In this document: piece by piece, positions 6,566 to 28,580 of the stretch | How the letters are laid out: every line of letters begins with the position of its first letter | Numbering within the stretch: the stretch's first letter is position 1 | Assembly (NCBI GenBank): GCA_026005175.1 | Contig: BPKO01000004.1 | Span: 248,001 to 312,000 of the forward strand | DNA from: Candidatus Tectimicrobiota bacterium | Lineage (GTDB): Bacteria > Tectomicrobia > Entotheonellia > Entotheonellales > Entotheonellaceae | Direction of reading: 5' to 3' | DNA length: 64,000 nt | The notes under the pieces: generated by a model | What the model was told of the DNA's origin: nothing | Database searches by the model: none | The model's input: the letters and a program-made list of their open reading frames with translations, nothing else | Made by a program: the position numbers and the translations under genes

Positions 6566-8011
6566 CTAGCCCTTGACGTTGCCCAGGGGGGTAAAGCGCA
6601 CCACGCGCTTGCTGATGCCGGCCAGCTCCGTGGCTTCCACCACGTCGTCGATGTTCTTGTAGGCGCCGCCGGCCTCCTCGGCCAGCCCCGACCAGGAAAC
6701 CGAGCGCACGTAGATGCCGCGGCTTTCCAGCTCGCGCTGCAGCTGCTGGCCGCGCCACTGCTTGCGGGCGCGCGTGCGGCTCATGGTGCGGCCGCTGCCA
6801 TGCGCGGTGGTAAAAAACGTCTGCGCGCCCGCAGGCACCCCCACCAGCAAGTAGGAGCCGGTCTCCATACTGCCGCCGATGATCACCGGCTGGCCCAGCT
6901 CGCGGTAGCGCGCCGGCAGCCCTTCCAGGCCGGGGCCAAAGGCGCGGGTGGCCCCTTTGCGGTGTACCAGCAGTGTTCTTTCCTGGCCGTCCACCACGTG
7001 GCGCTCCAGCTTGGCGGTGTTGTGGGCCACGTCGTAGACCATGTGCATGCCCAGGTCCTCTGCCGAGCGGCCAAAGACGCTGGAGAAGACCTCGCGGATG
7101 CGGTGCAGGATCACCTGGCGGTTGGCAAACGACATGTTGATGCCGCACTTCATGGCGGCAAAGTAGTCCTGGCCTTCGGGGGAATCAAACGGCGCGCAGG
7201 CCAGCTCGCGGTCGCGGATGGTGATGCCGTACTTGCTCTGCATGACGCGCAGGAAGACCTGCAGGTAGTCGGTGGCCACCTGATGGCCAAAGCCGCGGCT
7301 GCCGCAGTGGAACATCACCACCACCTGGTTGGGGATGGTGATGCCAAAGCGGCCGGCCAGCTCGGGGTCGAGGATGTGGGCCTGCTGGATTTCGAGGTAG
7401 TGGTTGCCCGAGCCCAGGGTGCCGATCTGGTTGTAGCCGCGGTCTACGGCCTTGTCGCTGATTTTCGAGGCGTCGGCGCCGGCGATGCAGCCGCCCTCCT
7501 CGGTGAGCTCCAGGTCTTCTTCCCAGCCGTAGCCCTGGCGGATGCACCAGCGGGCGCCCTCTTCCACCACGCGGCGGAACTCCTGGCGCGAGATTTTGAC
7601 AAAGCCGGTGCAGCCCACGCCGGCCGGCACCCGCTCGTAGAGGCGGTCGACCAGCGTTTTGAGGTGGGGGCGCACCTCCTCCACGGTGAGGTTGGTCAGC
7701 ACCAGGCGCATGCCGCAGTTAATGTCAAAACCGATGCCGCCGGGCGAGATGACTCCGCCCTGGGTCACGTCCATGGCCGCCACGCCGCCGATGGGAAAGC
7801 CGTAGCCCGAGTGGCCGTCGGGCATGCACAGGGCGTACTTGACGATGCCGGGCAGGGTGGCCACGTTGGTGATTTGCTCGAAGACCGCTTCGTCCATGTC
7901 GCGAAACAGCTTTTCCGTGGCGTAGATGCGGGCAGGGACGAGCATCCCCTCCTTGGCCGTGGGGGGAATTTCCCAGATGTACTCGCCGATGCGGCGCGCC
8001 AGTGAACGCAT
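6566..8011 (-). CDS. rtcB: RtcB-family RNA ligase
   Basis: The 481-residue protein shows the RtcB metal-site blocks in order: MPDGHSGYGFPIGG, SPGGIGFDINCGMR, MFHCGSRGFGHQ and MVYDVAHNTAK. The C-terminal HGSGRTMSR block carries the histidine expected to be guanylylated. RtcB joins 2',3'-cyclic phosphate or 3'-phosphate RNA ends to 5'-hydroxyl ends, acting in RNA repair or tRNA processing with GTP and manganese. The ATG is preceded by AAGGAGG. It heads an operon with a COG0523 GTPase and archease. The length is typical of bacterial RtcB. Confidence 0.95.
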   Translation of the reverse strand: MRSLARRIGEYIWEIPPTAKEGMLVPARIYATEKLFRDMDEAVFEQITNVATLPGIVKYALCMPDGHSGYGFPIGGVAAMDVTQGGVISPGGIGFDINCGMRLVLTNLTVEEVRPHLKTLVDRLYERVPAGVGCTGFVKISRQEFRRVVEEGARWCIRQGYGWEEDLELTEEGGCIAGADASKISDKAVDRGYNQIGTLGSGNHYLEIQQAHILDPELAGRFGITIPNQVVVMFHCGSRGFGHQVATDYLQVFLRVMQSKYGITIRDRELACAPFDSPEGQDYFAAMKCGINMSFANRQVILHRIREVFSSVFGRSAEDLGMHMVYDVAHNTAKLERHVVDGQERTLLVHRKGATRAFGPGLEGLPARYRELGQPVIIGGSMETGSYLLVGVPAGAQTFFTTAHGSGRTMSRTRARKQWRGQQLQRELESRGIYVRSVSWSGLAEEAGGAYKNIDDVVEATELAGISKRVVRFTPLGNVKG

Positions 8012-9154: not shown

Positions 9155-10015
9155 TCAGGGCCGCGCCTGGCGCTGCATCCAAGCCTCGATTTCCTGCCGG
9201 AAGAGGCGCAACCGTTGCGGCGCGCTGCGCAGCGCTGCGAGCACCTGGCCCAAGTCAATGGTCACGTACTCGTGGACCAGCACGTTGCGAAAGCCACCGG
9301 AGCCTCGCAGGCGGCCGTAGAGCTCCGCAGAGATCACGCCGGCCGCTTGCAACTCCGACAGCAGGGCCTCGTAACTCGTTGCCGTTCTGCCGTACGCCTG
9401 GCTCAGGATGGGATCGGCAACGTGAAAGACCACCGAGAGCCCTGCCAGCAAGCCGCGCTCTATCGTCCAGCGCAGGCTGAGATTCGTCGTCAGTTGGGCC
9501 TCGGTCGTCTCCCGGTACTTTTCCAGCTCCTGGGCGATGCGCTCCAGCTCGGCCAGGGCATGGGCCAAGAACTCGGGTCGTAAGGTCATACGCCCCTCCC
9601 GGGCGGCGTTGGCGGCAGGCCCGCGGGGTTCCTTAGGGGGACGGCGGGTGCGCTGCGCCAGCTCCCGCCACTGTGCGCGTTTGCCGGCTTCAAAGCGGGC
9701 GCGCTCGAGCGGCGACCGCTCCAGAATGCAGCGCCCTGCAAGAATGTCCGCCACCAGGTAAGGCGGTGCCAGGCGAAGGTCGACCACTTCCAGCCGATCC
9801 GTCTCCAGGGCCAGCGACAGATCGGCATAGAGTTCGGGGTAAGAGAAAGGGGGCTCCGGGAGCACCGCGATATCCACGTCCTGAGGGGAGGCGGCCGCTG
9901 CGGCTGCTGAGCCAAAAAGATAGGCCAAGCGCACGGGATGGCGCCGCAACACCGCCGGAAGCTGCGCCAGGCACGCCGCAGCCTTTTCTGCCGGTGGCGC
10001 GTGCGCTATGCTCAC
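9155..10015 (-). CDS. MntA-HepT fusion (nucleotidyltransferase antitoxin + HEPN toxin)
   Basis: One open frame of 286 residues joins two domains normally encoded separately. Residues 1 to about 130 are a minimal nucleotidyltransferase, with LFGSA..DVDIAV giving GS at 35-36 and DxD at 46 and 48. Residues 143 to 286 are a HepT/DUF86 HEPN domain with RNVLVHEY, an exact RX4HXY motif at 243-250. In known MntA-HepT pairs, MntA AMPylates the tyrosine of that motif to silence the RNase. An ATG at residue 143, with a GGGAGG site just before it, could also produce free HepT. I cannot exclude that an indel erased a stop codon between two genes. Confidence 0.82.
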   Translation of the reverse strand: MSIAHAPPAEKAAACLAQLPAVLRRHPVRLAYLFGSAAAAAASPQDVDIAVLPEPPFSYPELYADLSLALETDRLEVVDLRLAPPYLVADILAGRCILERSPLERARFEAGKRAQWRELAQRTRRPPKEPRGPAANAAREGRMTLRPEFLAHALAELERIAQELEKYRETTEAQLTTNLSLRWTIERGLLAGLSVVFHVADPILSQAYGRTATSYEALLSELQAAGVISAELYGRLRGSGGFRNVLVHEYVTIDLGQVLAALRSAPQRLRLFRQEIEAWMQRQARP

Positions 10016-10032: not shown

Positions 10033-10983
10033 ATGACCACCTACCTGGTCGTTAGCGGCGGCGGCGCCCACGGCGCCTTTGCCGTGGGTGCCCTCAAGGC
10101 CCTGGCAGCAGCCGGCGTGCGCTTCGACGGCGTGGTGGGCACCTCCACCGGGGCGCTCATCGCCCCCCTGGTGGCCACCGGCGAGCTTGACTTGCTGGAG
10201 GAGATCTACACCTCGGTGCGCACCCGCGACATCCTGCGCTGGTGGCCTTGGAACCTGCTTGCCGTGCGCGCCTGGTACTCTACGGGGCCGCTCGAAAAGC
10301 TCATTGCCCGCCAGCTCACCCCCGAGCGCTACGCGCGGCTTTTGGCCTCGCCCACCCAGGTGTGGCTGGCCACCGTGGCTTTGCAAAGCGGCCAGGTCAC
10401 CTACTGGAACCCCAGGCAGGGGCCGGGAGGCCAGCCGCTTTCGCTGGAGGTCTTCCGCCGGGCGCTTCTGGCCTCGGCCAGCCAGCCGGTGCTCATGCCG
10501 CTTCAGGCCATGCCCGACGGCTTGCAGCATGCCGATGGCGGCCTGCGCGAGATTGCCCCCTTGCGCAAGGCCATCGACGAAGGGGCCGAGGCGATCTGGG
10601 CGGTGGTGCTGACCCCGGCAGCGCCCTCCTTGCGCCGGGAGCCTTACCGGTCGGTTTTGGCCATTGCCGGGCGCACCCTGGACTTGCTTTTGGCCGAGAT
10701 CGTGGCCGGCGACGTGCACACCGCTACGACCATCAACGCCGTGCTCGACTGGCTCGAGGCGCTGCGCGGGCGCTTGGCGGCCCACCTTGCGGCAGACGAG
10801 CTTGCGGCGCTCTTTGCCGATTTTCCCCTTGCCGGCAAGCGGCTGCTAGAGCTGCACCTGCTTAGGCCCGAAGCCGAGCTGCCCGGCAGCAGCCTGCGCT
10901 TTGATCCTGGCTTGATGCGTGAGATGGTGGCGCAGGGAGAAGCTGCGGCGCGGCGCTACCTTGCGCGCTGCGGCGTCGTGTAA
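10033..10983 (+). CDS. Patatin-like phospholipase
   Basis: The 316-residue protein begins MTTYLVVSGGGAHGAFAVGA, the glycine-rich oxyanion loop of patatins. It then has the nucleophile elbow GTSTG and, later, the DGG motif (HADGGLREIAP) that supplies the catalytic aspartate. The family hydrolyses acyl esters of lipids. No signal peptide is visible, so it is probably cytoplasmic. The ATG follows GGGGAGGAAG. It is divergent from the MntA-HepT gene, with only 17 bases between the two start codons, so their promoters must overlap each other or the coding ends. Some patatins act in anti-phage systems, but nothing here proves that role. Confidence 0.87.
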   Translation: MTTYLVVSGGGAHGAFAVGALKALAAAGVRFDGVVGTSTGALIAPLVATGELDLLEEIYTSVRTRDILRWWPWNLLAVRAWYSTGPLEKLIARQLTPERYARLLASPTQVWLATVALQSGQVTYWNPRQGPGGQPLSLEVFRRALLASASQPVLMPLQAMPDGLQHADGGLREIAPLRKAIDEGAEAIWAVVLTPAAPSLRREPYRSVLAIAGRTLDLLLAEIVAGDVHTATTINAVLDWLEALRGRLAAHLAADELAALFADFPLAGKRLLELHLLRPEAELPGSSLRFDPGLMREMVAQGEAAARRYLARCGVV

Positions 10984-11339
10984 CCGCCTTTGACGGCCTT
11001 CGCGAGGCACTGTGCCTTCCCATGGTCTGAACTTTTCCGCGCTCTCGTGTAGGGTACTATCGGCGACAACCCGGATCACCGCTGTCGCAACCTTTCGGCA
11101 AGCTGCCGGCTCGTTTCGGCCTCCCGCTCCAGTTCCTCATCCGGATAATCAATCACCGCTGAGTCGCTGCTGCATGAAGGCCGCCGGGCCTGGGCCTTCG
11201 AGGGCGGCTTTGCTGGCGACCTTCACGATTCAAGACCTGACCCCGTGCCCTCTTGCAGCACTGCCGCAGCGGGTTTACGATCTGAGCGTCGTCCATGGCG
11301 TGCTTCTTACCGTGAGCTTGCACCTTGGGAGGGGTTGAA
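10984..11339. other. Intergenic stretch with a possible broken small gene and a REP-like motif
   Basis: This 356-base gap holds no intact gene I can defend. On the minus strand, a GTG at about 11224 starts KVASKAALEGPG, and another frame ends YPDEELEREAETSRQLAERL before a stop at 11076. This looks like a short antitoxin-type protein with one frameshift. The dispersed GGGGTCAGGTCTTGAAT motif lies directly in front of that GTG. Confidence 0.35.
11228..11244 (-). repeat. Solo copy of the Y1-transposase-associated motif
   Basis: On the minus strand this reads GGGGTCAGGTCTTGAAT and continues with TCGTG-like sequence. The same motif occurs at 37590, 38356, 58467 and (inverted) 59493. The last two bracket a Y1 transposase gene, so this is probably a remnant or mobilised end. 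Confidence 0.7.
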
Positions 11340-11612
11340 GTGGCAAAAGCCTCCAGGAGAGTAAAGCATCCCTATGTGGTTTCCCGCAAAGACTACTGTG
11401 GAGGCAGTCCGATCATCAAAGGGACAAAGTTCCCTGTGCGCGCGGTGGTGAACTATATTCTCAAACAGGGAATAACGCCCGAAGAACTGGTGAAAGAATT
11501 TTCCCATCTGACACTCGCTCAGGTCTACGATGCGCTGTCGTATTATTATGACCACGAGGAAGACATCGAGAGAGAGCTTCAGGAGTACACGGAAGCAAAG
11601 CTGAGACCATAA
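11340..11612 (+). CDS. DUF433 family antitoxin-like protein
   Basis: The 90-residue protein contains the DUF433 pattern: PYVVSRKDYCGGSPIIKGTK, then VVNYILKQGITPEELVKEF and a helix-turn-helix-like LTLAQVYDALSYYYDH. The start is a GTG at 11340 with GGGAGGGG at 5-base spacing, not the TTG the ORF track uses. DUF433 proteins commonly pair with DUF5615 PIN-like toxins, as here. Its TAA shares bases with the ATG of the next gene, so the pair is translationally coupled. This pair has lower GC than its surroundings, suggesting recent transfer. Confidence 0.85.
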   Translation: MAKASRRVKHPYVVSRKDYCGGSPIIKGTKFPVRAVVNYILKQGITPEELVKEFSHLTLAQVYDALSYYYDHEEDIERELQEYTEAKLRP

Positions 11613-11977
11613 TGGTTAGACCTGCTCTTCTGCTGGATGAAGATGTCCGGGTTGTCCTGGCAGCGATCTTACGGCAGCGGGGCTATGATGTCGTCCATGT
11701 TTTGGAGGTTAACCGAACAGGGAAAAGCGATTCTGAACAACTGGCCTATGCCGTGCGCCAGAGACGGGCCATACTGACCCATAACATCCGCGATTACCTG
11801 CTTCTTGACCGGGGCTATCAGGTGCAAGGGAAAGAGCACCACGGTATTCTCGTTTCGGATCAAGTTCCCTTGAGAGAGTTATTACGCAGGACTCTGCGAT
11901 GCCTGAGCCGGTACACGGCAGAGGAGCTGCGCAACCAAGTGATCTGGTTGCAGGATTTCAAAGCGGGGCAACCGTAG
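11612..11977 (+). CDS. DUF5615 PIN-like toxin
   Basis: The 121-residue protein begins LLLDEDVRVVLAAILRQRGYDV, matching DUF5615/PIN_5 proteins, whose acidic pair near the N-terminus helps bind metal. A second acidic site lies in ILTHNIRDYLLL. PIN-like folds cleave RNA. With the upstream DUF433 gene it forms a typical two-gene toxin-antitoxin unit, the start overlapping the preceding stop. It lies about 480 bases from the distal end of the CRISPR array. The nuclease activity and target are inferred from the family. Confidence 0.83.
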   Translation: MVRPALLLDEDVRVVLAAILRQRGYDVVHVLEVNRTGKSDSEQLAYAVRQRRAILTHNIRDYLLLDRGYQVQGKEHHGILVSDQVPLRELLRRTLRCLSRYTAEELRNQVIWLQDFKAGQP

Positions 11978-12453: not shown

Positions 12454-15400
12454 TTATCTGACAAACTTCCATCAGGTAAAAACTTCCAACAGCATGGTCA
12501 CAGAGGAGAAGAGACAGTGATAGCATACCGGTCTTAATCCCTTCTTCATCAGGTCAAAACTTCCAACGGGGAGTTTCTGGAGGAAAACACGGGGAGCATC
12601 ATACAGGTCTTAATCCCTTCTTCATCAGGTCAAAACTTCCAACGTTACTTACGGTGCGGCGCGCATCGAGGAGCTAGGCAGTCTTAATCCCTTCTTCATC
12701 AGGTCAAAACTTCCAACCGAGCTGCTCGATGCTACCGTCTCCCTCACCCGCATCCTCCACCGCGTCTTAATCCCTTCTTCATCAGGTCATCGGTTCGAAC
12801 ATTGGCTGATTGAATAAGGATAAAGGGAAAAGATATGACACCAATGTCTTAATCCCTTCTTCATCAGGTCATCGGTTCCAACGATACCGCTGGCGGTCTG
12901 ACTCTAGTGCAAAAAGAAGCAGGGGTCTTAATCCCTTCTTCATCAGGTCATCGGTTCGAACACGATGTCGGTGCATGCTTTGCCTTCGGCGGCCTGCCGG
13001 CGCCGCTCGTCTTAATCCCTTCTTCATCAGGTCATCGGTTCGAACCCGTTGGCACAGACGTGCCAGGAAATCCACTGCCGTCTTAATCCCTTCTTCATCA
13101 GGTCATCGGTTCGAACATTAGACGCAGATTGCGGACACTCTGAAGCAATATTTATCAGTACGTCTTAATCCCTTCTTCATCAGGTCATCGGTTCGAACGC
13201 TGCAGCATGACTATGCTATGCCGTGACCACTTGCGTCTTAATCCCTTCTTCATCAGGTCATCGGTTCGAACAGCCGAGCCGTCCTACGGATCGGCAGCCG
13301 GCCGCGTCTTAATCCCTTCTTCATCAGGTCATCGGTTCGAACCCGTGCACAGCTGGGCGATGCTGCCACGCGCTGCGCGTCTTAATCCCTTCTTCATCAG
13401 GTCATCGGTTCGAACGCCGCAGGCTTGCCACGTCGAGTCTGCGACTGGTCTTAATCCCTTCTTCATCAGGTCATCGGTTCGAACTAGCATGGCTGCGCTC
13501 CCTGGCGGCGGCGACGAAGCGTCTTAATCCCTTCTTCATCAGGTCATCGGTTCGAACCCCGCTCAGCGCATGTAGCCGCTACGCCGTCTTAATCCCTTCT
13601 TCATCAGGTCATCGGTTCGAACGCCGCTCTATGCTCCTACCGAGTCAGCCGGCCGGCGTCTTAATCCCTTCTTCATCAGGTCATCGGTTCGAACGCCGCA
13701 GGCATAAAGCACACGATCGAGTCTGCGACGAACTAGTCTTAATCCCTTCTTCATCAGGTCATCGGTTCGAACCCCGGCCTGACTGCGGACCTCGCGCGAG
13801 CTGGCGCAGTCTTAATCCCTTCTTCATCAGGTCATCGGTTCGAACGCTCTCACGCTCCTGGGGCGGGCCCCGTGGCCGCACGTCTTAATCCCTTCTTCAT
13901 CAGGTCATCGGTTCGAACACTCGGGGTCAGCAATCCGGCAGAGCCCATGTATCGCGGGTCTTAATCCCTTCTTCATCAGGTCATCGGTTCGAACACACTG
14001 CCGGCCCGGGCGCACCCGGGTGCCAGCAGAGTCTTAATCCCTTCTTCATCAGGTCATCGGTTCGAACATGACTGTGACAAAGTGGGAGTGCGCTCGTCGA
14101 TGCATCAGGTCTTAATCCCTTCTTCATCAGGTCATCGGTTCGAACCACGGCATCATCGGCTACGGACCGGACGCAGGTGCAGGGTCTTAATCCCTTCTTC
14201 ATCAGGTCATCGGTTCGAACTCCTGCGGCCCACGTGGCGCACCGCCAGCCTGTGTCTTAATCCCTTCTTCATCAGGTCATCGGTTCGAACCCGATCTCGC
14301 GCCAGACAGCAGCGGTATCTGCACTTGTCTTAATCCCTTCTTCATCAGGTCATCGGTTCGAACCACCTCCAGCCAGCACTTGTGCGACACGGAGTGAGAT
14401 CGTCGCGTCTTAATCCCTTCTTCATCAGGTCATCGGTTCGAACGTCTTGTGGTCGTATCCTTGGATCAGTCCTTGCAAGAGGTCTTAATCCCTTCTTCAT
14501 CAGGTCATCGGTTCGAACTGTGAGGGCAGATCTGGGTGGTGCTTAGCGATGACGTCTTAATCCCTTCTTCATCAGGTCATCGGTTCGAACGGCCTGCTCC
14601 ATGGGTAGCAACCTCAAGCGTCTTAATCCCTTCTTCATCAGGTCATCGGTTCGAACTCTTTCCAAATGCGGCGTGGCTCACCGGCAGGCGTCTTAATCCC
14701 TTCTTCATCAGGTCATCGGTTCGAACACCTTGGCAGGGGATATATGTTGGACCTTGTCTTAATCCCTTCTTCATCAGGTCATCGGTTCGAACATCTGGTA
14801 CGGACGGGCGTGACAACGTTTATGCATCGGGTCTTAATCCCTTCTTCATCAGGTCATCGGTTCGAACAGGCGATGGAGCTGCTGGCGCGGCAGGCCCAGC
14901 GCAGGACGCGGTCTTAATCCCTTCTTCATCAGGTCATCGGTTCGAACAGGAACTGGCGGAAAAAGTGGTCATCCGCGTGCGGCGTCTTAATCCCTTCTTC
15001 ATCAGGTCATCGGTTCGAACCATCCCGGGTGGCCGCTCGACTGCACCGAGCGCCGGAGGTCTTAATCCCTTCTTCATCAGGTCATCGGTTCGAACCGGAT
15101 CACGCTGCGAGGGACGATGACGAGGCCAGAAGTCTTAATCCCTTCTTCATCAGGTCATCGGTTCGAACGGAGCTCTGCGGCAGCTGCGCGCCTGCATGGT
15201 CTTAATCCCTTCTTCATCAGGTCATCGGTTCGAACTCAGGTACCAGGCTGCTAGAGAGAACGCAGCTGCGTGTCTTAATCCCTTCTTCATCAGGTCATCG
15301 GTTCGAACCCGTCGCGAGCCACTGGTCACCGTACTAAAATCAGTCTTAATCCCTTCTTCATCAGGTCATCGGTTCGAACTGGGTCTAGTAGGAGGGCGAC

Positions 15401-16674
15401 CAGCGCTGGCAGGTCTTAATCCCTTCTTCATCAGGTCATCGGTTCGAACTGACAGCTCTATCGGCAGAAGTCAACGTGATACGTCTTAATCCCTTCTTCA
15501 TCAGGTCATCGGTTCGAACCCTCTGGCTGCATCCTATGCGACACTGTGCGATATGGTCTTAATCCCTTCTTCATCAGGTCATCGGTTCGAACCACATGGA
15601 CGCGTCGACGACTGAGCACTGCAGAAACCGTCTTAATCCCTTCTTCATCAGGTCATCGGTTCGAACACGTGGCCATCTGTGCGTCAGCTTTGGGATAGTC
15701 GAGTCTTAATCCCTTCTTCATCAGGTCATCGGTTCGAACCCTACCTATCGGCTTGATCCCTTCGGTCTTACGCCTGCGTCTTAATCCCTTCTTCATCAGG
15801 TCATCGGTTCGAACGTCTGGCCAGCTTGAGATGAGCAGCGCACGTCGTCTTAATCCCTTCTTCATCAGGTCATCGGTTCGAACACTCCGCGCCGCGTAAC
15901 TCACTCGAGATCCTCGTCTTAATCCCTTCTTCATCAGGTCATCGGTTCGAACCAGTATCGGCGCTACCGATCATCCGCCGATTGTCTTAATCCCTTCTTC
16001 ATCAGGTCATCGGTTCGAACTCACGGCGCCTACGGCGCGTCGTTGCCGCGGCAGGTCTTAATCCCTTCTTCATCAGGTCATCGGTTCGAACGACATGTCA
16101 GAATATCCTGACGATGCGTCATGGACTAAGGGTCTTAATCCCTTCTTCATCAGGTCATCGGTTCGAACTCGTCAAGTTGCTGAATCGGGCTGCCTAGCGA
16201 ACGAGATGTCTTAATCCCTTCTTCATCAGGTCATCGGTTCGAACTACTCGTACGTGTCGCACGTAGGATGAGTGGGTCTTAATCCCTTCTTCATCAGGTC
16301 ATCGGTTCGAACGGACCACGTACTGCTGCTAGCCAAGGCCCTGACGGCAGTCTTAATCCCTTCTTCATCAGGTCATCGGTTCGAACGACTCATGCCGCCG
16401 CAATCTACCATCCGCAGTCTTGTCTTAATCCCTTCTTCATCAGGTCATCGGTTCGAACCCGTGACACATGCAGCGTCGCGCGATGCAGAGGAGTCGTCTT
16501 AATCCCTTCTTCATCAGGTCATCGGTTCGAACAGGCCATTGACGCGATCATGCCAGTCGGCCTTGCTGTCTTAATCCCTTCTTCATCAGGTCATCGGTTC
16601 GAACCCGCAAGTCCGATGAAGAGCGTCCAAGTCTGCCGTCTTAATCCCTTCTTCATCAGGTCAAAACTTCCAAC
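12454..16674 (-). CRISPR. Type III-A CRISPR array, 58 repeats (57 spacers)
   Basis: Repeats of 37 bases alternate with spacers of about 33-48 bases. I count 57 full repeats starting at 12531, plus a decayed one at 12454-12490. Read on the minus strand, each repeat ends GAAGGGATTAAGAC, giving an 8-base crRNA tag ATTAAGAC like that of other type III systems. The decayed repeat at the left, and cas2 at the right, put the leader on the right and transcription leftward. Two repeat types occur. Three left-hand repeats and the single leader-proximal one begin (minus strand) GTTGGAAGTTTTGACC. The rest begin GTTCGAACCGATGACC, except one at 12846 that begins GTTGGAACCGATGACC. Spacer sources cannot be told without a search. 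Confidence 0.97.
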
Positions 16675-16880
16675 AGTAGGCCCCGGAAGGGCGCACGCAT
16701 TGCCGAGCCGCGCTGCCCCACTGCCTAACCTGCCTCCATGCCCCTTGCCGGCTCCCTTTCGGCGGCGTTTTCCACGCCGGGGAGAAAGCAGTTTCTTCCA
16801 CAATTTCAAGGCCTTGTCGGCAATGCCTAACCTCCCCCGGGGAAGCGGGCAGCCGGCGGTTAGACACCGCCATGACCGGC
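16675..16880 (-). promoter_or_regulatory. Putative CRISPR leader
   Basis: These 206 bases lie between the cas2 stop and the leader-proximal repeat and contain no gene. An AT-richer patch (CAGTTTCTTCCACAATTTCA on the plus strand) may hold the array promoter. A short element, TGCCTAACCT, occurs twice (near 16722 and 16822). The assignment rests on position next to cas2 and on the trailer-type decay at the other end. Confidence 0.6.
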
Positions 16881-17161
16881 TCACAGCACGTACACGGACT
16901 CATCTCGGTAAACCTTCCCCTGTCCAAGCGTACGGATTTTGTCGCGGCAGCTTTGGCAAAGAAAATAAAGGCGCACGTCGTCGGCAGCCGGATCGATGAC
17001 GCGCTGGAGCCGCGCGCAGAGCCGCTCCAGCCGCGTGGCGTGGTCGAGCTCCATTTCAAACACGCTGCGCTGGGGGCCCGATCGCCAAAGTCTTCGAGGA
17101 TTTTGGCAACTTTCAGGCGGCGCTGGTCGTCGCTGATGTCGTAAGCCACCACGTAAAACAT
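16881..17161 (-). CDS. cas2: CRISPR adaptation endonuclease Cas2 (frameshifted)
   Basis: The protein reads [27 protein letters not shown] in one frame and [20 protein letters not shown] to DESVYVL in another, together giving a normal Cas2 of about 93 residues. The metal-binding aspartate in AYDIS is present. The frame changes at a run of five G/C bases, where one missing or two extra bases would explain it. Cas2 dimers bridge two Cas1 dimers during spacer integration. It follows cas1 by 14 bases with a good AGGAGG site. The frameshift may be a sequence error, because similar ones occur in essential genes nearby. Confidence 0.88.
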
Positions 17162-17441
17162 CCCCTGCCTCCTCTTTACCACCGTAGCACAAATGGCACG
17201 TACGGCTCGCCGCGCGTCAAATGCGCTGCCAGGCGCTCGGCCTGGCGCCGGAAGCTCTTGCGCAGCGTGGTGGTTTCTCCAGAAAGACGATCTGTGAACT
17301 CGCGGTTGAGGTGCTCTTCGTAGGCCCCGGAAAAACTTCCCCAGCGACTGCCGCCGCAGCCGCACGCCCCCGTGCTGCGCGTCAGCAACAAAATCCTCGG
17401 GCTGCATCACCCGCAGGTTCGCCAGGTTCAGTACCAGCCGG

Positions 17442-19967: not shown

Positions 19968-21317
19968 TCAGCCCTCCTGAGGCACCAGCTGCACCCATCC
20001 CAGCGCCCAACGCGCCGCGCCGTCCTCGTAGGCCACGCGGCGCGTCTTAGGAAAGGGCGCCGTATGATCAAGCTGCCCCGTGCGCGGCACCGCCCCCAAG
20101 CGATACCGCTGGCGCAGCGCCTGGAAGCCGTTGTCCCCCAGTACTGTCCGGGCCAGGTCGCCCAGGGTCTTCATTTCCCAGCCCCCGCCCCAGCCCACGT
20201 TGAGCAAAAAGCCTCCCTCTGGCAGCGCAACCAGGGTGGCTTCCAGCTCGGCGTAAAAGTCGCGCAGCGGCTCAAGCCCGTGCTCGGTATAAAACGCTTT
20301 CTCTGCGGCAATCAGCGCCCGGGCGTAGGCATTGCAGGTGCGGGCTAGCTGCCGCACCGCCTCTTCCCTGGCCCCGCGCAGCCGCAAGTCGCGGTTGGCC
20401 GCAGGCGAAAAGAGAAAGACGTCGAGGCCAATGGCCACGCGCAGCGCCGTATCGGGCAGCAGCCACTCGACAAAGGCCTTATATTCCCCGTCTGCCTCGC
20501 GCTTCTCCACCAGGCGCTGGCCGCGCAGGGTATAGGTCCACACCAGCCCTACGGCCAGCCGCTCGAGGCCGCAGGCCGTGCTGTCCTGAACCTGTACCGC
20601 CCGCATGAGGTCGTGGTTGGGCGTGCGTCCCAGGAGCTCGCGCTCGACGTCCTGGGCCAGCCACTCACGGCGGCGCCCCAGGCCTTGCAACCGCTGCTGC
20701 AACCGGCGCCAATCTCTCTGAAGCGCCCCTTCGCGCACGCCACAGAGGCGATACAGGGTCTGCTGGTAATGCTGTGCCTGCTCGCGCCCAACCAGCTCGG
20801 CCAGGATGGCACGGTGGGTTTCCGCGTCCTCGAAGGCCCGCTGCTGCCGGAGCTTGTTGAGCAGCTCGTCCTTGAGCTGACAGAGGGTCAGGTACTGCCG
20901 GAGAAAGGCCTGGTGCTCGGCACTGTCTTTGGCCAGGGACCAGAGCACGGCGGTGCGCACCGCGCCCTTGACCGAGGTGCCAGGCAGGTAGGGCTGCCCG
21001 TAGGCGTCCTTGATGGCCTCGCGGATGGGCACGCGGGCGGGGTCCTCCGGACAGCGCAGGGTATACGCTGCCACCGCCTCCGGTGGCAGCTGGCGGGCAC
21101 GCAGCAGGTCGAGCCAGGCAAAATCCCGCGCGTCCATGGCGCGGGCTAGCGCAGCGGCGTCCAGGCCGTGAGTTAACACCCGCTCGAGGTCGATACGGTG
21201 CCACTGGCGGTCGGCGTATACGCCGTCGAAGTGGCCAAGCTGTACTCCGCTGCCCACGTGTACCGGGCTGAGACAGGTCAGCATATAGGTGGTAGTGACT
21301 TTGATCTCCTGTGTCAT
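19968..21317 (-). CDS. csm5: Csm5, type III-A effector subunit
   Basis: The protein of about 449 residues starts MTQEIKVTTTYMLTCLSPVHVGSG, a RAMP first strand plus glycine turn. It continues with PYLPGTSVKGAVRTAV, the ligand-binding glycine-rich block of Csm5, and ends with FLLNVGWGGGWEMKTLGD. Csm5 caps the 3' end of the crRNA in the Csm complex and helps its maturation. The ATG overlaps the csm4 stop (ATGA), so translation is coupled. The ORF-track start at 21356 is 13 codons too early. Confidence 0.92.
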   Translation of the reverse strand: MTQEIKVTTTYMLTCLSPVHVGSGVQLGHFDGVYADRQWHRIDLERVLTHGLDAAALARAMDARDFAWLDLLRARQLPPEAVAAYTLRCPEDPARVPIREAIKDAYGQPYLPGTSVKGAVRTAVLWSLAKDSAEHQAFLRQYLTLCQLKDELLNKLRQQRAFEDAETHRAILAELVGREQAQHYQQTLYRLCGVREGALQRDWRRLQQRLQGLGRRREWLAQDVERELLGRTPNHDLMRAVQVQDSTACGLERLAVGLVWTYTLRGQRLVEKREADGEYKAFVEWLLPDTALRVAIGLDVFLFSPAANRDLRLRGAREEAVRQLARTCNAYARALIAAEKAFYTEHGLEPLRDFYAELEATLVALPEGGFLLNVGWGGGWEMKTLGDLARTVLGDNGFQALRQRYRLGAVPRTGQLDHTAPFPKTRRVAYEDGAARWALGWVQLVPQEG

Positions 21318-22348
21318 TTCTTTACCCCTACGGGAAAGGCGTACCCGTAGCGCCACACCGCGTGCGGGCAGCGCTCTGGCTTGACGCTCACCAGCCGCCC
21401 GAGACGCATGCCCTCAGGGCGGGGGAAAAGCGAGCCCTCGGCAAACATCCACACCATTTGCCGCCGCAAATTGGCAGCCTCTGGCGAAGTGACCCACCCG
21501 CGCCGCGGCATGAGCTCGTACGCCGCCCCTTCTGCCAGCAAGATGGCAAGCTCTTCGCGGCGCGGGCACAGGGGAGAGAGGGTAACAAAGTGCGAGGCGG
21601 CCTCGGCTTCGGGCAGGGGTTCCTCCCGCACCGGTTCCAGCTCGAACAGTCCCCGGCCGGCGCCGCGCTCCCCGCCCAGGCCGCTGTCGCCCAGCAGCCG
21701 CAGGCAGGCCTCGAACCGCTGCCGCAAGCCGTCCCCGTGGTCCTGGTTGAAATCCACGGCAAACCACAACCCCACCCCGGGAGCGAACCGCACCTCGCCA
21801 AAGTGCCAGATCTCCGAAGCCTGGGTGAGGCGGTCGAGGGTCACCCGCGGCACCACGGCCTCCTTCCACAAGACGATGTCCTCCGTGGCGTCGTCGGTCC
21901 ACGGCGCCAGCGCCGCTTTCTCCACCTCGCTCACCCACACGGTGCCGCCGTTGAGGCAGTGCTTCTTCTCGAAGCGCAGCGCCTCGCCGCTGACCAGTGC
22001 CGCAAAGACCCGCTCGGAAACCCAGCGCACGCGCTTAAACGCCTTTTCGTCTTCGGCCTCGAGGTGGCCCAGGCGGGCCAGCGGCTTCGGGAACAGGCGC
22101 ACCTCTCCGGCATAGGGAAACGCCGAGCTCAGCAGAAATGGCTCGCTTCCGGCTTCGGCCTCGGTAAACCAGTCCAGCACGTCCTGCTCCAGAGCCTCCA
22201 CGCCGTAGAGCGTGCGCCAAGCCATGCACAGGGCGCTAAAGAGGGTATCGGCCGGCACGTGGGTGCGCGTTGCCTCCAGCCCTACCCCGCGCTCGCCAAT
22301 GTGCAACGGCGCGCGGAAATGCAGACGATAGGTGACAAATTCGGCCAC
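21314..22348 (-). CDS. csm4: Csm4, type III-A effector subunit (Cas5 group)
   Basis: The 344-residue RAMP protein begins MAEFVTYRLHFRAPLHIGER, continues with VPADTLFSALCMAWRTLYG as in Csm4, and has a glycine-rich loop GLGGERGAGRGLF. Csm4 binds the 5' tag of the crRNA and contacts Cas10 at the base of the complex. It lies between csm3 (5 bases away) and csm5 (ATGA overlap). The frame is intact, with no missing domain. Confidence 0.92.
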   Translation of the reverse strand: MAEFVTYRLHFRAPLHIGERGVGLEATRTHVPADTLFSALCMAWRTLYGVEALEQDVLDWFTEAEAGSEPFLLSSAFPYAGEVRLFPKPLARLGHLEAEDEKAFKRVRWVSERVFAALVSGEALRFEKKHCLNGGTVWVSEVEKAALAPWTDDATEDIVLWKEAVVPRVTLDRLTQASEIWHFGEVRFAPGVGLWFAVDFNQDHGDGLRQRFEACLRLLGDSGLGGERGAGRGLFELEPVREEPLPEAEAASHFVTLSPLCPRREELAILLAEGAAYELMPRRGWVTSPEAANLRRQMVWMFAEGSLFPRPEGMRLGRLVSVKPERCPHAVWRYGYAFPVGVKK

Positions 22349-22353
22349 TGTCC

Positions 22354-23187
22354 TTACTCCTGGAGCAGCTTCTGGATCCTCTCCGCATAGGCCTGTGGCT
22401 GTAGCTCAGCCACCGTCAGGTTTTCGGCCAGAGTCTCCAGGCCTTTTTTTCCCTCGTAGTAACCATGCGGTTTGCACACCACATGGATGTTGCGGAACGC
22501 AATCTTCCCCGCTCCGCGCGAGCCGTACCCTCCGAGGTAGTCGTCCTCCAACAGCTCCATGGCCTTGAAGACGTACTGGAGCCATGCCACATCACTTTCC
22601 CACCCCTGGCCGTTGAGGGCGTAAATTCCGTAAACGAGCTCGAACGGCGCGAATATCGCCCCAGCCGGCACCCGCTCGTTTTGCCGCGGCACTGCTGCCG
22701 AGGTGATGCGGTCGATGGCCGCTTCCCATTTCACCTCGGTAAACGGCAAGTCCGTCTTAGCGCGACGCAAGCGTTCGGTCGCTTCATGATCGGCCGCCAG
22801 ATGAACATCGCGTACCAGGAGCCGCGCGGGCTTGAGCTGCGACCAACTCCGCCGCTCTCGTTCCCCTGGGGTGACCCCGAAGATCTGACAAACAGCGCAG
22901 TTAGAGTATTTGTCCTCGTTGTCGCAAACGTGCACCCGTACCTTCGGCTCCTCTCGACGAATGTCATGATTCGCCTCGTTGCCGAAGTGCCTGTCCAGCA
23001 ACGAACGCATTTTCCCGCGCAGAGACGACCCCGGAATGTAGGGCTCGCGGCTTACGGGATGGCGAATAATGGGATTGTCGATTCCGCCAATATCAAGCCC
23101 CGCTGCCGCTCCCCCGATATGGAGTCCCGTCACTGCCTCTACCGAACCGCTAATAATCACTTTGCCCTTTAATGTCAGGCTCGCCAT
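22354..23187 (-). CDS. csm3: Csm3, backbone and target-RNA nuclease (Cas7 group)
   Basis: The 277-residue protein starts at an ATG with AAGGAGGGATG upstream. It has GLHIGG, then IGGIDNPIIR, where aspartate 37 aligns with the catalytic Asp33 of characterised Csm3. REPYIPGSSLRGKMRSLLDR follows, and a cysteine set (HVCDNEDKYSNCAVCQIFG) is inserted. Csm3 forms the filament that binds crRNA and cuts target RNA at 6-base steps. Because the catalytic aspartate is present, slicing, and so cyclic nucleotide signal shut-off, should be intact. Confidence 0.94.
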   Translation of the reverse strand: MASLTLKGKVIISGSVEAVTGLHIGGAAAGLDIGGIDNPIIRHPVSREPYIPGSSLRGKMRSLLDRHFGNEANHDIRREEPKVRVHVCDNEDKYSNCAVCQIFGVTPGERERRSWSQLKPARLLVRDVHLAADHEATERLRRAKTDLPFTEVKWEAAIDRITSAAVPRQNERVPAGAIFAPFELVYGIYALNGQGWESDVAWLQYVFKAMELLEDDYLGGYGSRGAGKIAFRNIHVVCKPHGYYEGKKGLETLAENLTVAELQPQAYAERIQKLLQE

Positions 23188-23200
23188 GGCATCCCTCCTT

Positions 23201-23590
23201 CTATCTGCCGCCGGCGGCTTTGTGATAGGCCAGAATAGCCTCGAAGAAATCGACGAATCTTGTAAATTTCTTCTCGTCATCTCCGACTTCGTCGATGGCC
23301 CATGACAAAACGTCTTTCAATTCTCTAGCCCCCTGCACATTCGCCCGGGCCGCCGCGTAGGCGAGTTTTGGCTTCAGCAACACAAATTCTCCGGCATCAA
23401 AACCACGCATTTCCATTTGCTTGACCATGCCGTATATGTTACGGATCTGGCTTGTCGTCAATCCGGTCCGCTGCAATCGCGGTCCGAGTCTTTCGGCTAC
23501 CTGGACAAGGACCTTTCCTCCCTGGCGAATGACCTGCTGAACTTCCCCCTGAGACAACGATTCTCCTCCCCTTGGCTCCTGTCTAGCCAT
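23201..23590 (-). CDS. csm2: Csm2, small subunit
   Basis: The 129-residue helical protein has the Csm2 pattern: GLTTSQIRNIYGMVKQME, then LLKPKLAYAAAR, and a terminal RFVDFFEAILAYHKA. Csm2 lines the filament beside Csm3. The ATG is 3 bases after the csm1 stop, and csm3 follows after 13 bases. The N-terminal ~25 residues are polar and probably disordered. Confidence 0.9.
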   Translation of the reverse strand: MARQEPRGGESLSQGEVQQVIRQGGKVLVQVAERLGPRLQRTGLTTSQIRNIYGMVKQMEMRGFDAGEFVLLKPKLAYAAARANVQGARELKDVLSWAIDEVGDDEKKFTRFVDFFEAILAYHKAAGGR

Positions 23591-23593
23591 GGC

Positions 23594-26136
23594 CTATTCC
23601 TCCCTTGTCAGTAGGGCGACCCAGCGTGCGAGCACGTGCAGGAGGGCGATCAGCCCCTGGGACTCGCGCAGGATCGCCTGTCCGAGCGCCTCGATGGTGG
23701 CGTTGTGCGCCGGGTAGCGCTCGCCAAAGCGGCTCAGCTGGTACACCAGGCGCCAGCGCCAGCGGTCGTACTGAATGGCCTCTTCGATCTGCGCCAGGGT
23801 GGCCTGTCCCTGGCGCTGCAGCCGCCGCTGATACTTGGCGTTTTCCTCGTACAGGGCGTAGATCTCCGAAAGGCGCGTCAGAAAAGCGCGCGGCAGGGCT
23901 GCCGCGCCGTTTTGCAGCATGGCCTGGAGCTTCTCTTTCCACTGCGCCACTTCCGCAAACTGCTCCCAGCCGAGCGGCGTTTGCAGGAAGCACAGGGCGT
24001 CTTTGGCCCCGGCCATCGGGGCGCCGCAACGCCTTCGCATACTTGGCGTTGTCAAGAGTGTCCTTGGCGTTGTTGGCCAGCTGGTAGAGCGGGAACTTCT
24101 GGTGCTCGATGGCGATGCCGCCCGAGAGGGTCACGTGGTCGCCGCCGACGAACCGCCGGAAGTCGTCGCGAAGGCGCCGTGCCACTTCTGGCAAAACACT
24201 CCAGGCGCCGACGAGGAACAAATCGTCACCGCCGGCGTAAATAAGGTACAGGGTGTCTTCTTTACCGCGGGAAAAGCTGTTGTACTCGCGGCACACCCGT
24301 GGCACCCAGGCTTCGAAAAAGAGCCGCAGCGACTCGCTCAGGGTGCTCATGCGCGAGATGGTGGCTTCTTTGCCCAGGCCGCGCCGGAAGACTTCGCCCA
24401 GGCTGTCGACGTCCATGCGCAGCACCCCCAGCCACTCGACCCCCTGGGAGGCCTTGGCCAAGTCGCTGAACTCGGCGATGACCTCTTCGCCGTTGTCTCC
24501 GCGCTTGAGCGGCGTGGCACCGGCCAGCAGGCGGAAGTCGTAGCTCACCGGCAAGTCGCCCCAGCGAAACCGCTGCACGACTTCCTCAGAGAGGAACGCT
24601 ACCGTGTCGAGGACATACACGGTGGCCGCCGTGGCCCCGGTGGGGCGAGGCACCGCTTCATCTGCCTGCACCAGCCAGGCCTCGGCGCCAAAGGCCCGCA
24701 GGGCGTGGCGCCAGTCGCCGTGAGGCGGCGGCTCGCTTTCGGCAACCGTAAAAAGGACGAGGTGGGTGGGCTGGCGCAAGCGCTTCCCGAGGTCTTCGAA
24801 GCCGCGGCAGTGCTGGCACTTGCGCACGCCTTCTTCCACTTCGAGCGTGCCCTCGTTGTGGCAGACCTGGCAGGTGTCTGCTGCGGTGGTGCCGGCCTGG
24901 CGGGCGGTAAACAGGTTCTCGTGCATGGCCTCGGGCCCCAGGTCTGCCCACTTGCGCTGCTTGCGCTCGCCGACGCGCCGCGAGACCTCGTCCCACTTCG
25001 TGGCAAAAGCGTTGCCACCGGCCTCTTCTTCGAGAAAGTCCCGCGCCGCCACCGGCACAAAATCCACGGTCAGGAAGAGGTCGCCGCGGTGGGCGGCCCA
25101 CAGCTTGCGCGCAATCTCCTGCCGCAAGCCGTCCAGCTGGCGCACGGTTTCCTGGTACGGGAGAAGGAGGTAAAAGTGGCCGCCGCCGGCAAAGAGCAGG
25201 TTCACGGGCGGCAGGGCAAAGCGGCGCAGCAGCCAGTGGGCAATCACTTCAGTGAGCAGCTGCAAGTAAAACGAGCGCCCGCGCAGGCCGCGGGCGGCGC
25301 CGCTGCTGGTGAGCAGGTAGAGAAAGTCCTGGGTGCCTGAAATGTCCCCCTTGACCAGGGCGCACAGCGGCCGCTCCAGTAGCGCCGCTTCGCGCGGCGT
25401 GAGGGGCTCCTTCTTGAACAGCCGCGTCAAGGCGTCATACAGGGTCCGCACCTCGTCTTCGGCCAATCCCTCCCGCACCAGGCAGGCGGCAATCGCCGCC
25501 GTGGTCTTGAGGTGGTGGTAGAGCGAGATGTCGGGAACGATGTCGCGGCGCGTGTCGGAGGGAATGGCCCAGGTGTACTTGTGTAGCAGCGCCAGCAGGG
25601 TCACCACGTCGCCGCGCGGCACGCGGGCCATCTCGGCGGCAAAGTCCTGCCACAGCGCGCGGTACGCCGCGGCCGAGCCGGCCATTTCGGGATGCGGAAA
25701 AAGGGCGTCCTCTTCGAACGACAAGGCGCGCAGCGTGTGGTAGCGCGGCCCCTCGGCGCTTCGCCCGTCCCACTGGACGCGCGACAAAACGGTGCGCAGC
25801 GTGGTTTCTGCCCGGCCGCGGGCGCCCTCGGTGTCGCCTTCGGCTTCGGCGCGTTCGTTGGCCGAGAGACGGTCGGCCAGGCTCACCAGCAGCTCGTCGT
25901 GCAGCTCGGGGCCGTGGTGCTTGAGCACCAGGCGCCGCAGCGAGCCGGCGTCGAGCGGCCAGCCAGACAACTGCTCTTCGACAAACAGGGCACTGCAGGG
26001 CTCGTGGCTGTAGCGGGCCCTCGCGGCGAAACCCTTCGGCCCACGCGGGCAGGGGCTCGAAGGTGCGCTCGCGAAACTTGCCGATGTCGTGGAGCAGGGC
26101 GCCGAGGGTGATGAGCACTTGGTCTTCATGCCTCAT
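23594..26136 (-). CDS. csm1: Csm1/Cas10, HD nuclease and cyclic oligoadenylate synthase (frameshifted)
   Basis: The product runs across three frames. The N-terminus (MRHEDQVLITLGALLHDIGK) carries the HD motif at residues 16-17. The long middle frame contains the first palm (LLFAGGGHFYLLLP), a zinc set (CQVC..CQHC) and the second palm with an intact GGDD (LIYAGGDDLFLVGAW). The C-terminal frame (KDALCFLQTPLGWEQFAEV) ends WVALLTREE. Frames change near 26020 and 24020, both in G/C runs, so one-base errors are likely. GGDD implies synthesis of cyclic oligoadenylates on target binding, and HD implies DNA cleavage. The start overlaps the cas6 stop. Confidence 0.93.
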
Positions 26137-27118
26137 GGCGAACTCCGTCGTGCTCTAGGACGTACTTGCCCAGGCCAAAGCTGCTGCCTTTGCCCACGTG
26201 GACAAAGGTGCCCAGCTGCAGCAGGGGCAGGAAGGGCTGCCAGGGGCCGCGGTAAGTGACTTTCCCGATGACGCCGCCCAGCTTCATGCGCGTGTCCTGG
26301 CGGGCCGAGTAGCGCTCCCAGTCGTACCAGCGCAGCCGCTGCGCCACCGTTTCGACCTCGCTGGCCTGGGCAATCAGGCCGCGAAAGTCCAGCTCCAGCG
26401 CCGCGCCGCAGTGAAAATAGGCCAGGTTGGCCAGCCGCCGCAGCAAGGCGCGCACGAGCACGTGAAAGTCCAGGCGATCCGTCAGGGCCCCGCCGTAGAC
26501 CAGGCGCGCCGGGGTAAGAAAGCGCAGGGTGAGCAGGGAAGACGTCGCCAGGACTCCAGGCGCGACGAGCTCCCGCGCTTCGAGGGCGCGGTAGCCGCTG
26601 CGCAGCGTCTGGTCCTCTCCACGGTAAATCACCACTTCCTGCCCTCCCGGCGCCAGCCAGGCGACCGTTTCCACCGCAAAGCGCCCCCGCCCTTTGCCCA
26701 GCCCGTGCTGTGCCCCTAGCCGCTCGAAGGCGTAGATGAAATAGGGCAGATAGTCGGCGCCGCGCCCGATCAGGGTGCAGTCAAAGCTCAGGGTCTCGCC
26801 CGGCGCATAGCGCGTTTTGGCCTCTAGCGGCGGCAGCAGCACAAACGGGTGCGGGGCGGCAACGTACTTGCGCATGCGCGTGGCCCCCTCGGGCACCGGC
26901 GTGTCAAAGACGTAGGGATAGGCACAGCGGGACCGCAGCAGGCAGCGCTGGCAGTCGCGGTGCTCGACGACGCACACCGTGTCTTTGAAGACCGCCCCAA
27001 AGCCCCCGCGCAGCGTCGATCCCTTGTAGCGCGGCAAGTGCAGGGCCGTCTGCGCCCGCAAGACAAAGCGCACGGGCAACAGCTTTAGCACTTGCCACGG
27101 CTCATCCACCGGTATCAC
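26126..27118 (-). CDS. cas6: Cas6-type crRNA-processing endoribonuclease
   Basis: The 330-residue protein has the Cas6 C-terminal glycine-rich signature (GTFVHVGKGSSFGLGKYVLE) and an N-terminal RYKGSTLRGGFGAVFKD block. A cysteine cluster follows (HRDCQRCLLRSRCAYP), as in the PF10040-type Cas6 of type III systems. Cas6 cuts the repeat to leave the 8-base 5' tag. Its last codons overlap the csm1 start, so it heads the csm operon. A second glycine-rich patch, GLGKGRGRF, lies mid-protein. Confidence 0.88.
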   Translation of the reverse strand: MIPVDEPWQVLKLLPVRFVLRAQTALHLPRYKGSTLRGGFGAVFKDTVCVVEHRDCQRCLLRSRCAYPYVFDTPVPEGATRMRKYVAAPHPFVLLPPLEAKTRYAPGETLSFDCTLIGRGADYLPYFIYAFERLGAQHGLGKGRGRFAVETVAWLAPGGQEVVIYRGEDQTLRSGYRALEARELVAPGVLATSSLLTLRFLTPARLVYGGALTDRLDFHVLVRALLRRLANLAYFHCGAALELDFRGLIAQASEVETVAQRLRWYDWERYSARQDTRMKLGGVIGKVTYRGPWQPFLPLLQLGTFVHVGKGSSFGLGKYVLEHDGVRHEA

Positions 27119-27329
27119 CGGCCAACCCCCTCCCTTTAGCCCTCACCGGCCAGGGAGACCTTCAGGGTACTCAACGACAAGCTGCTTCACGGTTCTTCTC
27201 CTCTTCGATGGCGCCGGCAGTGGGCCAGCAGGTTATTTTCCCCTCGTTCCGCAGCGTGGGGCCTTCCCTTCACCGCGGCCGGTGATCGAACCCCTCCACT
27301 TTGCCGCTCGTGGGGGAGGCGTCGATCCC
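27119..27329. other. Gap between cas6 and the CARF-HEPN gene, with a truncated UPF0175-like start
   Basis: These 211 bases separate the csm genes from the sensor genes. On the minus strand at 27191-27144, a GTG with a GAGGAG site begins KQLVVEYPEGLPGR and stops after 15 residues. The wording resembles the N-terminus of UPF0175 antitoxins. I take it as a relic, or as a chance short ORF. No terminator hairpin is obvious, and a cas6 promoter may lie here. Confidence 0.35.
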
Positions 27330-28580
27330 TCACGCCCACAGCGCCGCAAAGCGCGGCAGTGCCGCTTCTTCGAGGCCCAGCAGCTCCATGAGCAGGGCGC
27401 GAAAGCGCCGGTAGCCGCCCTCGCCCACCGGATCCTCGCCGTGCCCCAGCGGCGACTGGTTGCGCAGGCCAAGCAGCTTCACCACCTCGTCTTGCCGCGC
27501 CATAAAGGCCTGCCCCAGGGGGTCGCCCAGGGCCGCCAGCAGGCGGTAGGCGGCCATGAGCGGCACCTTGAGCTTGCCGTCGCGGGGGTCGCGGTAGCGC
27601 TGCGCGTACTCCGCGCGCAGCGCCTCGGGCAGCTGCTCGGGCGATACGTCTTCGGTGTGAATGCCGTAGTGCTGCCGCAGGCGAAAGCGGGCAGCGCGCT
27701 CTAGAGCGCTGTAGAGGCGCGCCACGGCGTCTTCGTACTTGCCTTCGCGCTGCGCGCGGCGGTCGGCGTTGGCAATGAGGTCGGCAATGTAGGCTTCGTC
27801 CCGGCTCTCGGACCGCGTCAGCTGCTGCAAAAAGGCCAGGTTGGCTTCCATCTCCTGCACCCCCTGCCGCAGCGCCGCCCGCCCTGCCCCCTGGGCGTAG
27901 GGCTTGAGAAAGCGCAGGGCCTGCCCCAGCTTGGGCAGGGCGTCGCGGTGGCGAAAGTTGTCCCAGTCGCAATAGGCCGCCGCAGCACTGGCCAGGGCGC
28001 GCATCACTTCCTGCTCCTGCGGCTCGAGGTGGCCCTGCAGGCGCTCGAGCTCGCGCCAGGCAATTTCGTAGCGCGCGGTGTCCCAGTAAAGGCGCAAGCG
28101 CTGGCGCTCTTCTTCGGCCCACTCGCGCCAGGGGTTGTGCACACGGAGCATGCGCTCGCGCCCGCCGATGACCACCCCCACGCCGCCTTTGTCGCGCGCC
28201 ACGCCGCCAACGTAGCTGTAGCGGTGCGCGCGCCGCAGGGTGGCCAGCACCAGCGCCGCCGACATGGTCTTGGTGCCGCCGGTATAATCGACCACCAGCG
28301 TCTCTTCGCTCACCCCCCACTGCGCCAGCTTGGCCGGCAGCTGCTCGCGCAGCACGCGGTAGCAGACGCCAAGGTCCTCGGCGTCCGGCGTGACAAGGCG
28401 GTCGCTGTCGGCGTAGCGGTAAGTCAGGGCGCGGATGACGTCCTGGATCTGCGGCGCCGTTTCAGTAGAGACAAAAAAGAGCACGTAGGCCGGCTGCTGC
28501 TGGTTGAGGCTGTAAATCACCGGCTCAGGACTGCCCCCCAGCGACAGCAGCATGGCGCGGCACGTCTCGGGTTCGCTCAT
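27330..28580 (-). CDS. CARF-HEPN RNase, TIGR02710/Csm6-like
   Basis: The 416-residue protein has an N-terminal CARF domain with YVLFFVSTETAPQIQDVI and the ligand-site motif VVDYTGGTKTMSAAL. Its C-terminal helical domain ends with LRNQSPLGHG, an RX6H HEPN nuclease site at about 373-380. This matches the TIGR02710 group of Csm6/Csx1-like proteins. Cyclic oligoadenylate made by Cas10 should bind the CARF dimer and switch on RNA cleavage. It overlaps the upstream SAVED-like gene by ATGA, so both are co-translated. Ligand size is not predictable from the sequence alone. Confidence 0.87.
   Translation of the reverse strand: MSEPETCRAMLLSLGGSPEPVIYSLNQQQPAYVLFFVSTETAPQIQDVIRALTYRYADSDRLVTPDAEDLGVCYRVLREQLPAKLAQWGVSEETLVVDYTGGTKTMSAALVLATLRRAHRYSYVGGVARDKGGVGVVIGGRERMLRVHNPWREWAEEERQRLRLYWDTARYEIAWRELERLQGHLEPQEQEVMRALASAAAAYCDWDNFRHRDALPKLGQALRFLKPYAQGAGRAALRQGVQEMEANLAFLQQLTRSESRDEAYIADLIANADRRAQREGKYEDAVARLYSALERAARFRLRQHYGIHTEDVSPEQLPEALRAEYAQRYRDPRDGKLKVPLMAAYRLLAALGDPLGQAFMARQDEVVKLLGLRNQSPLGHGEDPVGEGGYRRFRALLMELLGLEEAALPRFAALWA

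Follow-up and report, generated by a model that had tools for sequence, protein, structure and literature searches.

In two-gene HepT/MntA systems, MntA attaches AMP to the tyrosine of the RX4HXY motif of HepT and thereby blocks its RNase activity (PMC7641770). The locus described here raises the question of how such a pair may operate when both halves lie in one reading frame. More specifically, a sequence-only reading of the window (i.e., the whole stretch of DNA that was analyzed, 64,000 nucleotides) had proposed that this frame encodes an MntA-HepT fusion and could yield, from a start codon inside it, some free HepT.

A single reading frame joins MntA and HepT

The features of the fusion gene and its divergent neighbor are as follows.

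9155..10015, minus strand: MntA-HepT fusion gene, 286 aa, GTG start (domain searches and fused homologues)
9713..9955, minus strand: Polbeta / MntA-like nucleotidyltransferase domain, residues 21-101 (Pfam PF18765, E 2.8e-9; MntA fold match)
9872..9913, minus strand: GSX9DVD nucleotidyltransferase motif, residues 35-48, sequence GSAAAAAASPQDVD
9590..9646, minus strand: flexible linker, residues 124-142 (pLDDT <50 for 124-143; unconserved columns 119-142)
9191..9544, minus strand: HepT-like HEPN RNase domain, residues 158-275 (Pfam PF01934, E 7.6e-15; HEPN toxin fold match)
9266..9289, minus strand: RX4HXY motif, RNVLVHEY at residues 243-250 (with the RNase residues and the predicted AMP-accepting tyrosine)
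10033..10983, plus strand: patatin-like phospholipase, divergent neighbor (Pfam PF01734, E 3.4e-26)

The claimed 286-residue frame is real: it runs uninterrupted from a GTG at 10015 to a stop codon ending at 9155, on the minus strand, a detail that the sequence-only reading had left out. Both motifs lie exactly where that reading had placed them, with GSX9DXD at residues 35-48 and RNVLVHEY at residues 243-250. Pfam searches with the window protein gave 37.4 bits for Polbeta (PF18765, cut-off 26.9) and 55.1 bits for HepT-like (PF01934, cut-off 23.5); these two were the only domains matched in the fusion, with no CARF, SAVED, or other second-messenger sensor domain. In NCBIfam, the protein passed HepT_toxin (NF047751; 64.1 bits, cut-off 60) and missed MntA_antitoxin (50.6 bits, cut-off 60). 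Collectively, the domains, together with the conservation and dN/dS values given below, rule out a chance open frame.

The predicted model of the fusion has a mean pLDDT of 86 and consists of two confident domains. By Foldseek, the C-terminal domain resembles the HEPN toxins 7ae6-7ae9 (TM by target 0.84-0.92), and the N-terminal domain resembles the MntA proteins of 7bxo, 6m6u, and 7aer. Disorder is predicted for residues 124-143, and at a pTM of 0.52 the mutual placement of the domains, and with it any geometry for a modification in cis, is uncertain.

Only 17 bp separate the GTG of the fusion from the ATG of the patatin gene, and a promoter scan found neither a sigma-70-like site nor a terminator near the fusion gene. 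On the other side, a gene for the RtcB RNA ligase (6566-8011) lies 1.1 kb past the 3' end of the fusion; the proximity of an RNA-repair enzyme to an RNase toxin may be a coincidence.

The fusion is conserved in several phyla

We found the same in-frame fusion in eight further assemblies, from Acidobacteriota, Armatimonadota, and Chloroflexota. A scan of contigs with a two-row alignment retrieved such relatives, while a scan with a single sequence gave none. In alignment A2, the fusions closest to the window copy are those of L034 (Blastocatellia; 64% identity) and L035 (Bryobacteraceae; 59%), followed by L005/L114 (genome G351; 51%), L036 (Thermoflexus; 48%), L037 (Armatimonadetes; 45%), and L038 (Fimbriimonadales; 43%). 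L116 and L117 come from two other genomes of the same phylum as G351. Since the eight assemblies are independent, a sequencing error or a lost stop codon between the two domains is ruled out, and the conservation of the fusion across a clade found in several phyla excludes an assembly artefact. The search for other fused MNT-HEPN proteins, which the sequence-only reading had suggested, thus proved productive, and it also uncovered more distant fusions in L040 and L047 (Anaerolineae; two contigs of one genome), L042 (Rokubacteria), L006, and L121. Two further longer frames that appeared to hold both halves (L050 and L083) were discarded, as their N-terminal parts are not MNT.

In a tree of 97 HepT domains, the window copy groups with L034 and L035 (support 100/93), and these three nest in a clade of 11 rows (support 100/98) that consists of nine fusions, an overlapping split pair (L118), and a copy frameshifted inside HepT (L039). 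The tree requires at least five changes between the fused and the split state, so the fusion also arose outside this clade.

Residues G35, S36, D46, and D48 are invariant in alignments A2 and A3, as are R243, H248, and Y250 over the ten full-length fusions of alignment A3, and every intact fusion contains RX4HXY. In addition, dN/dS is well below 1 in the pairs whose dS is unsaturated (L037-L038, 0.22/0.79; L116-L117, 0.35/1.04).

The fusion was found in none of the other genomes of its own phylum (five genomes searched). No relative turned up in phage records or viral contigs, and plasmids gave just two separate HepT proteins, both distant; on these searches, a virus or plasmid origin was rejected.

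The fusion shares its domains, its MNT-then-HEPN order, and its folds with the type VII HepT/MntA systems (Shewanella oneidensis SO_3166/SO_3165 and the HEPN/MNT pairs of Aphanizomenon and Legionella), as well as the motifs GSX~10DXD and RX4HXY. Of the defining features of type VII, it has the HepT-like HEPN domain with RX4HXY and the MNT domain with GSX10DXD, the latter as GSX9DVD; the GSAAAAAASPQDVD motif is one residue shorter than GSX10DXD in the window copy and likewise in the rest of the clade. Whereas type VII systems comprise two separate genes, the halves here form one polypeptide, encoded in one frame in the window and in the eight assemblies.

MNT-HEPN fusion is an architecture that is already known. 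Anantharaman 2013 (PMC3710099) lists HEPN-M (DUF86) as "occasionally fused to MNT" in one table entry and describes HEPN domains fused to MNT as typically being without RNase residues. In contrast, the RNase residues are intact across the present clade and the start codon of HepT is retained, which runs counter to the published view of MNT-fused HEPN domains. What is new is a conserved family in which both motif sets are intact and an internal HepT start is preserved.

The same study proposed that fused MNT-HEPN proteins may be domesticated as modifying enzymes, the HEPN half then binding the substrate in the manner of aminoglycoside nucleotidyltransferases. Indeed, the fusion has the NT-helical layout of AadA and AAD(9). 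However, the whole-chain matches to these enzymes are weak (TM by query 0.24-0.30, rmsd ~10 or more), so that the chain as a whole does not show an AadA/KNTase-like fold, and the retained RNase residues speak against an inactive HEPN-like domain. With R, H, and the acceptor Y invariant in the clade and the C-terminal domain matching HepT toxins, we consider domestication to be very improbable.

A start codon is retained at the domain junction

Two features at the junction bear on a possible production of free HepT.

9587..9589, minus strand: internal ATG start, residue 143 (the position at which HepT begins in stand-alone relatives)
9595..9600, minus strand: Shine-Dalgarno-like GGGAGG, 5 nt upstream of the internal ATG

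Both elements had been claimed on sight of the sequence and both are present at residue 143 as described. The duplex energy of GGGAGG is -10.8 kcal/mol, a value equalled by 0.4% of the in-frame positions of the gene. In the stand-alone relatives L041, L043, L051, L049, L053, and L007, HepT starts at the residue that aligns with M143. All nine fused members of the clade have a start codon at this position (8 ATG and 1 GTG), and because the nine genes form one clade, the codon has survived long divergence. The amino-acid identity of column 143 is 0.71, with a start codon in every clade row, while pairwise identity is 0-0.2 in most of columns 119-142, 0.10 at column 144, and 0.29 at column 145.

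Ahead of this codon, five of the nine (window, L034, L035, L116, and L117) have an unusually strong Shine-Dalgarno, with 0.4-2.6% of in-frame positions pairing as well with the anti-Shine-Dalgarno sequence; that of L005 is moderate, and those of L036, L037, and L038 do not stand out. For the strength of this element across the clade we obtained a combined p of ~1e-5, an optimistic value in that it treats related rows as independent. These alignments speak against a chance occurrence of the internal start, and its conservation suggests that it is probably used in most of the clade, so that the gene may yield two products.

The start could nevertheless be a relic of a once separate gene, in which case a fused type VII protein would be the only product. 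Such a reading must contend with nine start codons out of nine, including one swap between ATG and GTG, amid columns mostly of 0-0.3 identity, and with the strong Shine-Dalgarno in more than half of the members. It draws on the three members that are without a clear junction Shine-Dalgarno and on L042, an independent fusion that lacks a start codon where the domains join, and we regard it as rather doubtful. A structural reason for keeping the residue is also conceivable, as Met could be favored at the N-terminal end of the first helix of HepT.

A probable single-gene version of a type VII module

The reading that we prefer, and hold to be moderately probable on the sequence features above, is that the locus packs the type VII HepT/MntA module into one gene, which would yield a self-AMPylated fusion and additional HepT. 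The MNT domain would AMPylate Y250 of RX4HXY, in cis or between the subunits of a dimer, and the fusion would thereby be made in a disarmed state. Ribosomes would also initiate at the internal start codon (ATG or GTG) and thereby make further HepT that has no antitoxin half and that the fusion would modify in trans. The extra HepT could in this way adjust the ratio of toxin to antitoxin. In contrast to the two-gene type VII systems, the fusion would depend on an internal start for any additional HepT. The preferred reading is weakened by the three clade members (L036, L037, and L038) that have no clear internal Shine-Dalgarno, by L042 with its junction devoid of a start codon, by the uncertain domain placement in the model, and, for the window copy, by Glu76 and the N-terminal GTG described below.

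The solved two-gene complexes vary in this ratio, with MNT:HEPN being 2:6, 2:2, or 1:4 (PMC11586414), i.e., toxin:antitoxin of 3:1, 1:1, and 4:1. The fusion alone sets MNT:HEPN at 1:1, and only initiation at the internal start would shift this value by adding HepT. Because the fusion fixes the ratio, single-codon changes at the internal start would make the ratio question directly testable. A precedent for the logic of one frame and two products exists in the Cas11b genes, where internal in-frame translation giving a second subunit has been reported experimentally (PMC11899642); the proteins are unrelated and, for the fusion, internal translation is inferred.

Of what the sequence-only reading proposed, the true fusion with two intact motif sets and the conserved start are supported, while modification in cis, a toxin inactive at birth, and a second translation product are predictions. 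That reading had also seen in the internal start a possible means of dose control. In the window copy, the Shine-Dalgarno energy is -10.8 kcal/mol for the internal ATG vs -1.5 kcal/mol for the N-terminal GTG. Taken literally, the stronger internal element would favor the free toxin, which counts against simple dose control in this copy.

The window copy may be weakening

One further feature distinguishes the window copy from its relatives.

9788..9790, minus strand: codon for Glu76, which aligns with the third metal ligand of S. oneidensis MntA, Asp71 (alignment to 5yep_A)

Residue 76 is Glu in the window copy, and all other clade fusions have Asp there; in S. oneidensis MntA, Asp71 binds the second Mg2+ (PMC7641770). 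Thus, the third metal-binding Asp of the type VII systems is missing here. The window copy also has no Shine-Dalgarno at its N-terminal GTG and lacks the conserved N-terminal segment EKYxHLPPL. In addition, comparisons on the window side give a dN of 0.36-0.41 for the MNT half and a lower value, 0.24-0.31, for the HepT half; between L034 and L035, dN is about equal in the two halves (0.26 vs 0.25). These sequence differences suggest that the window copy may be changing or weakening.

If it were decaying outright, with the MNT half losing its function, either its toxicity would be low or another antitoxin would cover it. The substitution at residue 76, the bare GTG, the lost segment, and the faster MNT half would all fit, as would the broken relatives L039, L048, L119, and L120, which are frameshifted or deleted. 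Yet the frame remains open over 286 aa with GS, DXD, R, H, and Y intact, and the loss of the antitoxin half before the toxin would be expected to harm the cell. Decay of the window copy is, in our judgment, unlikely.

Among the broken relatives, L120 and L048 (Armatimonadetes) have lost the junction by deletion, and L120 is frameshifted as well; both are decayed fusions. The genome of the window also carries a second, two-gene HepT/MntA locus (L003, ~1465-2320; G000:C3). Its HepT is intact, but a frameshift interrupts its MntA between GS and DXD, which reflects either an assembly error or a broken antitoxin.

Some members of the family lie in or near CRISPR loci

Two features of the window are given here for context only.

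12531..16674, plus strand: CRISPR array, 57 repeats, 2.5 kb from the fusion
19968..28580, minus strand: type III-A csm locus, with Csm5, Csm4, Csm3, Cas10/Csm1, Cas6-like, and a TIGR02710 CARF protein

Three of the nine clade members (window, L034, and L114) are near CRISPR loci. In G351, the fusion is part of a type III-D operon (L114, 4128-16173) with the order cas6, cas10, csx7, csx10, csm2-like, fusion, csx7, and further RAMP genes; gaps of a few nt separate it from its csm2-like and csx7 neighbors. In L034, cas6 is followed by a gene for a 563-aa protein and the fusion, with cas1, cas2, and repeats downstream. The placement of one relative in a type III-D operon and of another between cas6 and cas1-cas2 is new, as is the nearness of the window copy to an array next to a csm locus. 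No cas gene or array was found in the flanks examined of the other six (L035, L036, L037, L038, L116, and L117), and a general link between the family and CRISPR was therefore rejected.

These placements raise the possibility that the fusion serves type III CRISPR systems as an accessory effector and is not a free toxin-antitoxin module. The operon of G351 and the arrangement in L034 are consistent with this, as is the distance of 2.5 kb between the window copy and an array that adjoins the csm locus. Moreover, a "Cmr1-MntA" chain in the PDB (9z7q, 9z7v, and 9z7x), on which no paper was found in the literature searched, joins an MntA domain to a type III subunit. It resembles the fusion in linking MntA to another protein in a type III setting and differs in its partner, which is Cmr1 and not HepT. 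However, the window fusion lies outside the csm operon, from which the array and other genes separate it, the six remaining members have no such neighbors, and the fusion has neither CARF nor another sensor domain; we find such an effector role improbable. A further proposal, in which a conserved family of self-AMPylating RNase toxins, made as disarmed fusion and free HepT from one gene, acts in some lineages as an RNA-guided, AMP-controlled effector in type III CRISPR operons, seems similarly improbable to us. The III-D operon copy and the Cmr1-MntA chain suggest that this toxin-antitoxin chemistry may have been recruited to CRISPR immunity more than once.

Several details of these neighborhoods are worth recording. 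In L114, the csm2-like gene, the fusion, and csx7 are followed by genes of the Csx14 and TIGR02221 families. The 563-aa protein of L034 (6297-7988) has no clear family and gives a weak hint of GDSL lipase; its gene is 12 nt from both cas6 and the fusion. In the window, a DUF433 and DUF5615 (PIN-like) gene pair (11325-11977), a probable second toxin-antitoxin module, is found between the fusion and the array. The first three repeats of the array (12531-12705) end in AAAACTTCCAAC and not in ATCGGTTCGAAC, so that one end has diverged. Finally, the cas1-cas2 part of the III-A locus (16661-19903) looks broken: a 264-aa frame (16661-17455) gives only a short Cas2 match, and an IS66 transposase (17442-19028) adjoins a frame (19010-19903) that matches only ~50 residues of Cas1.
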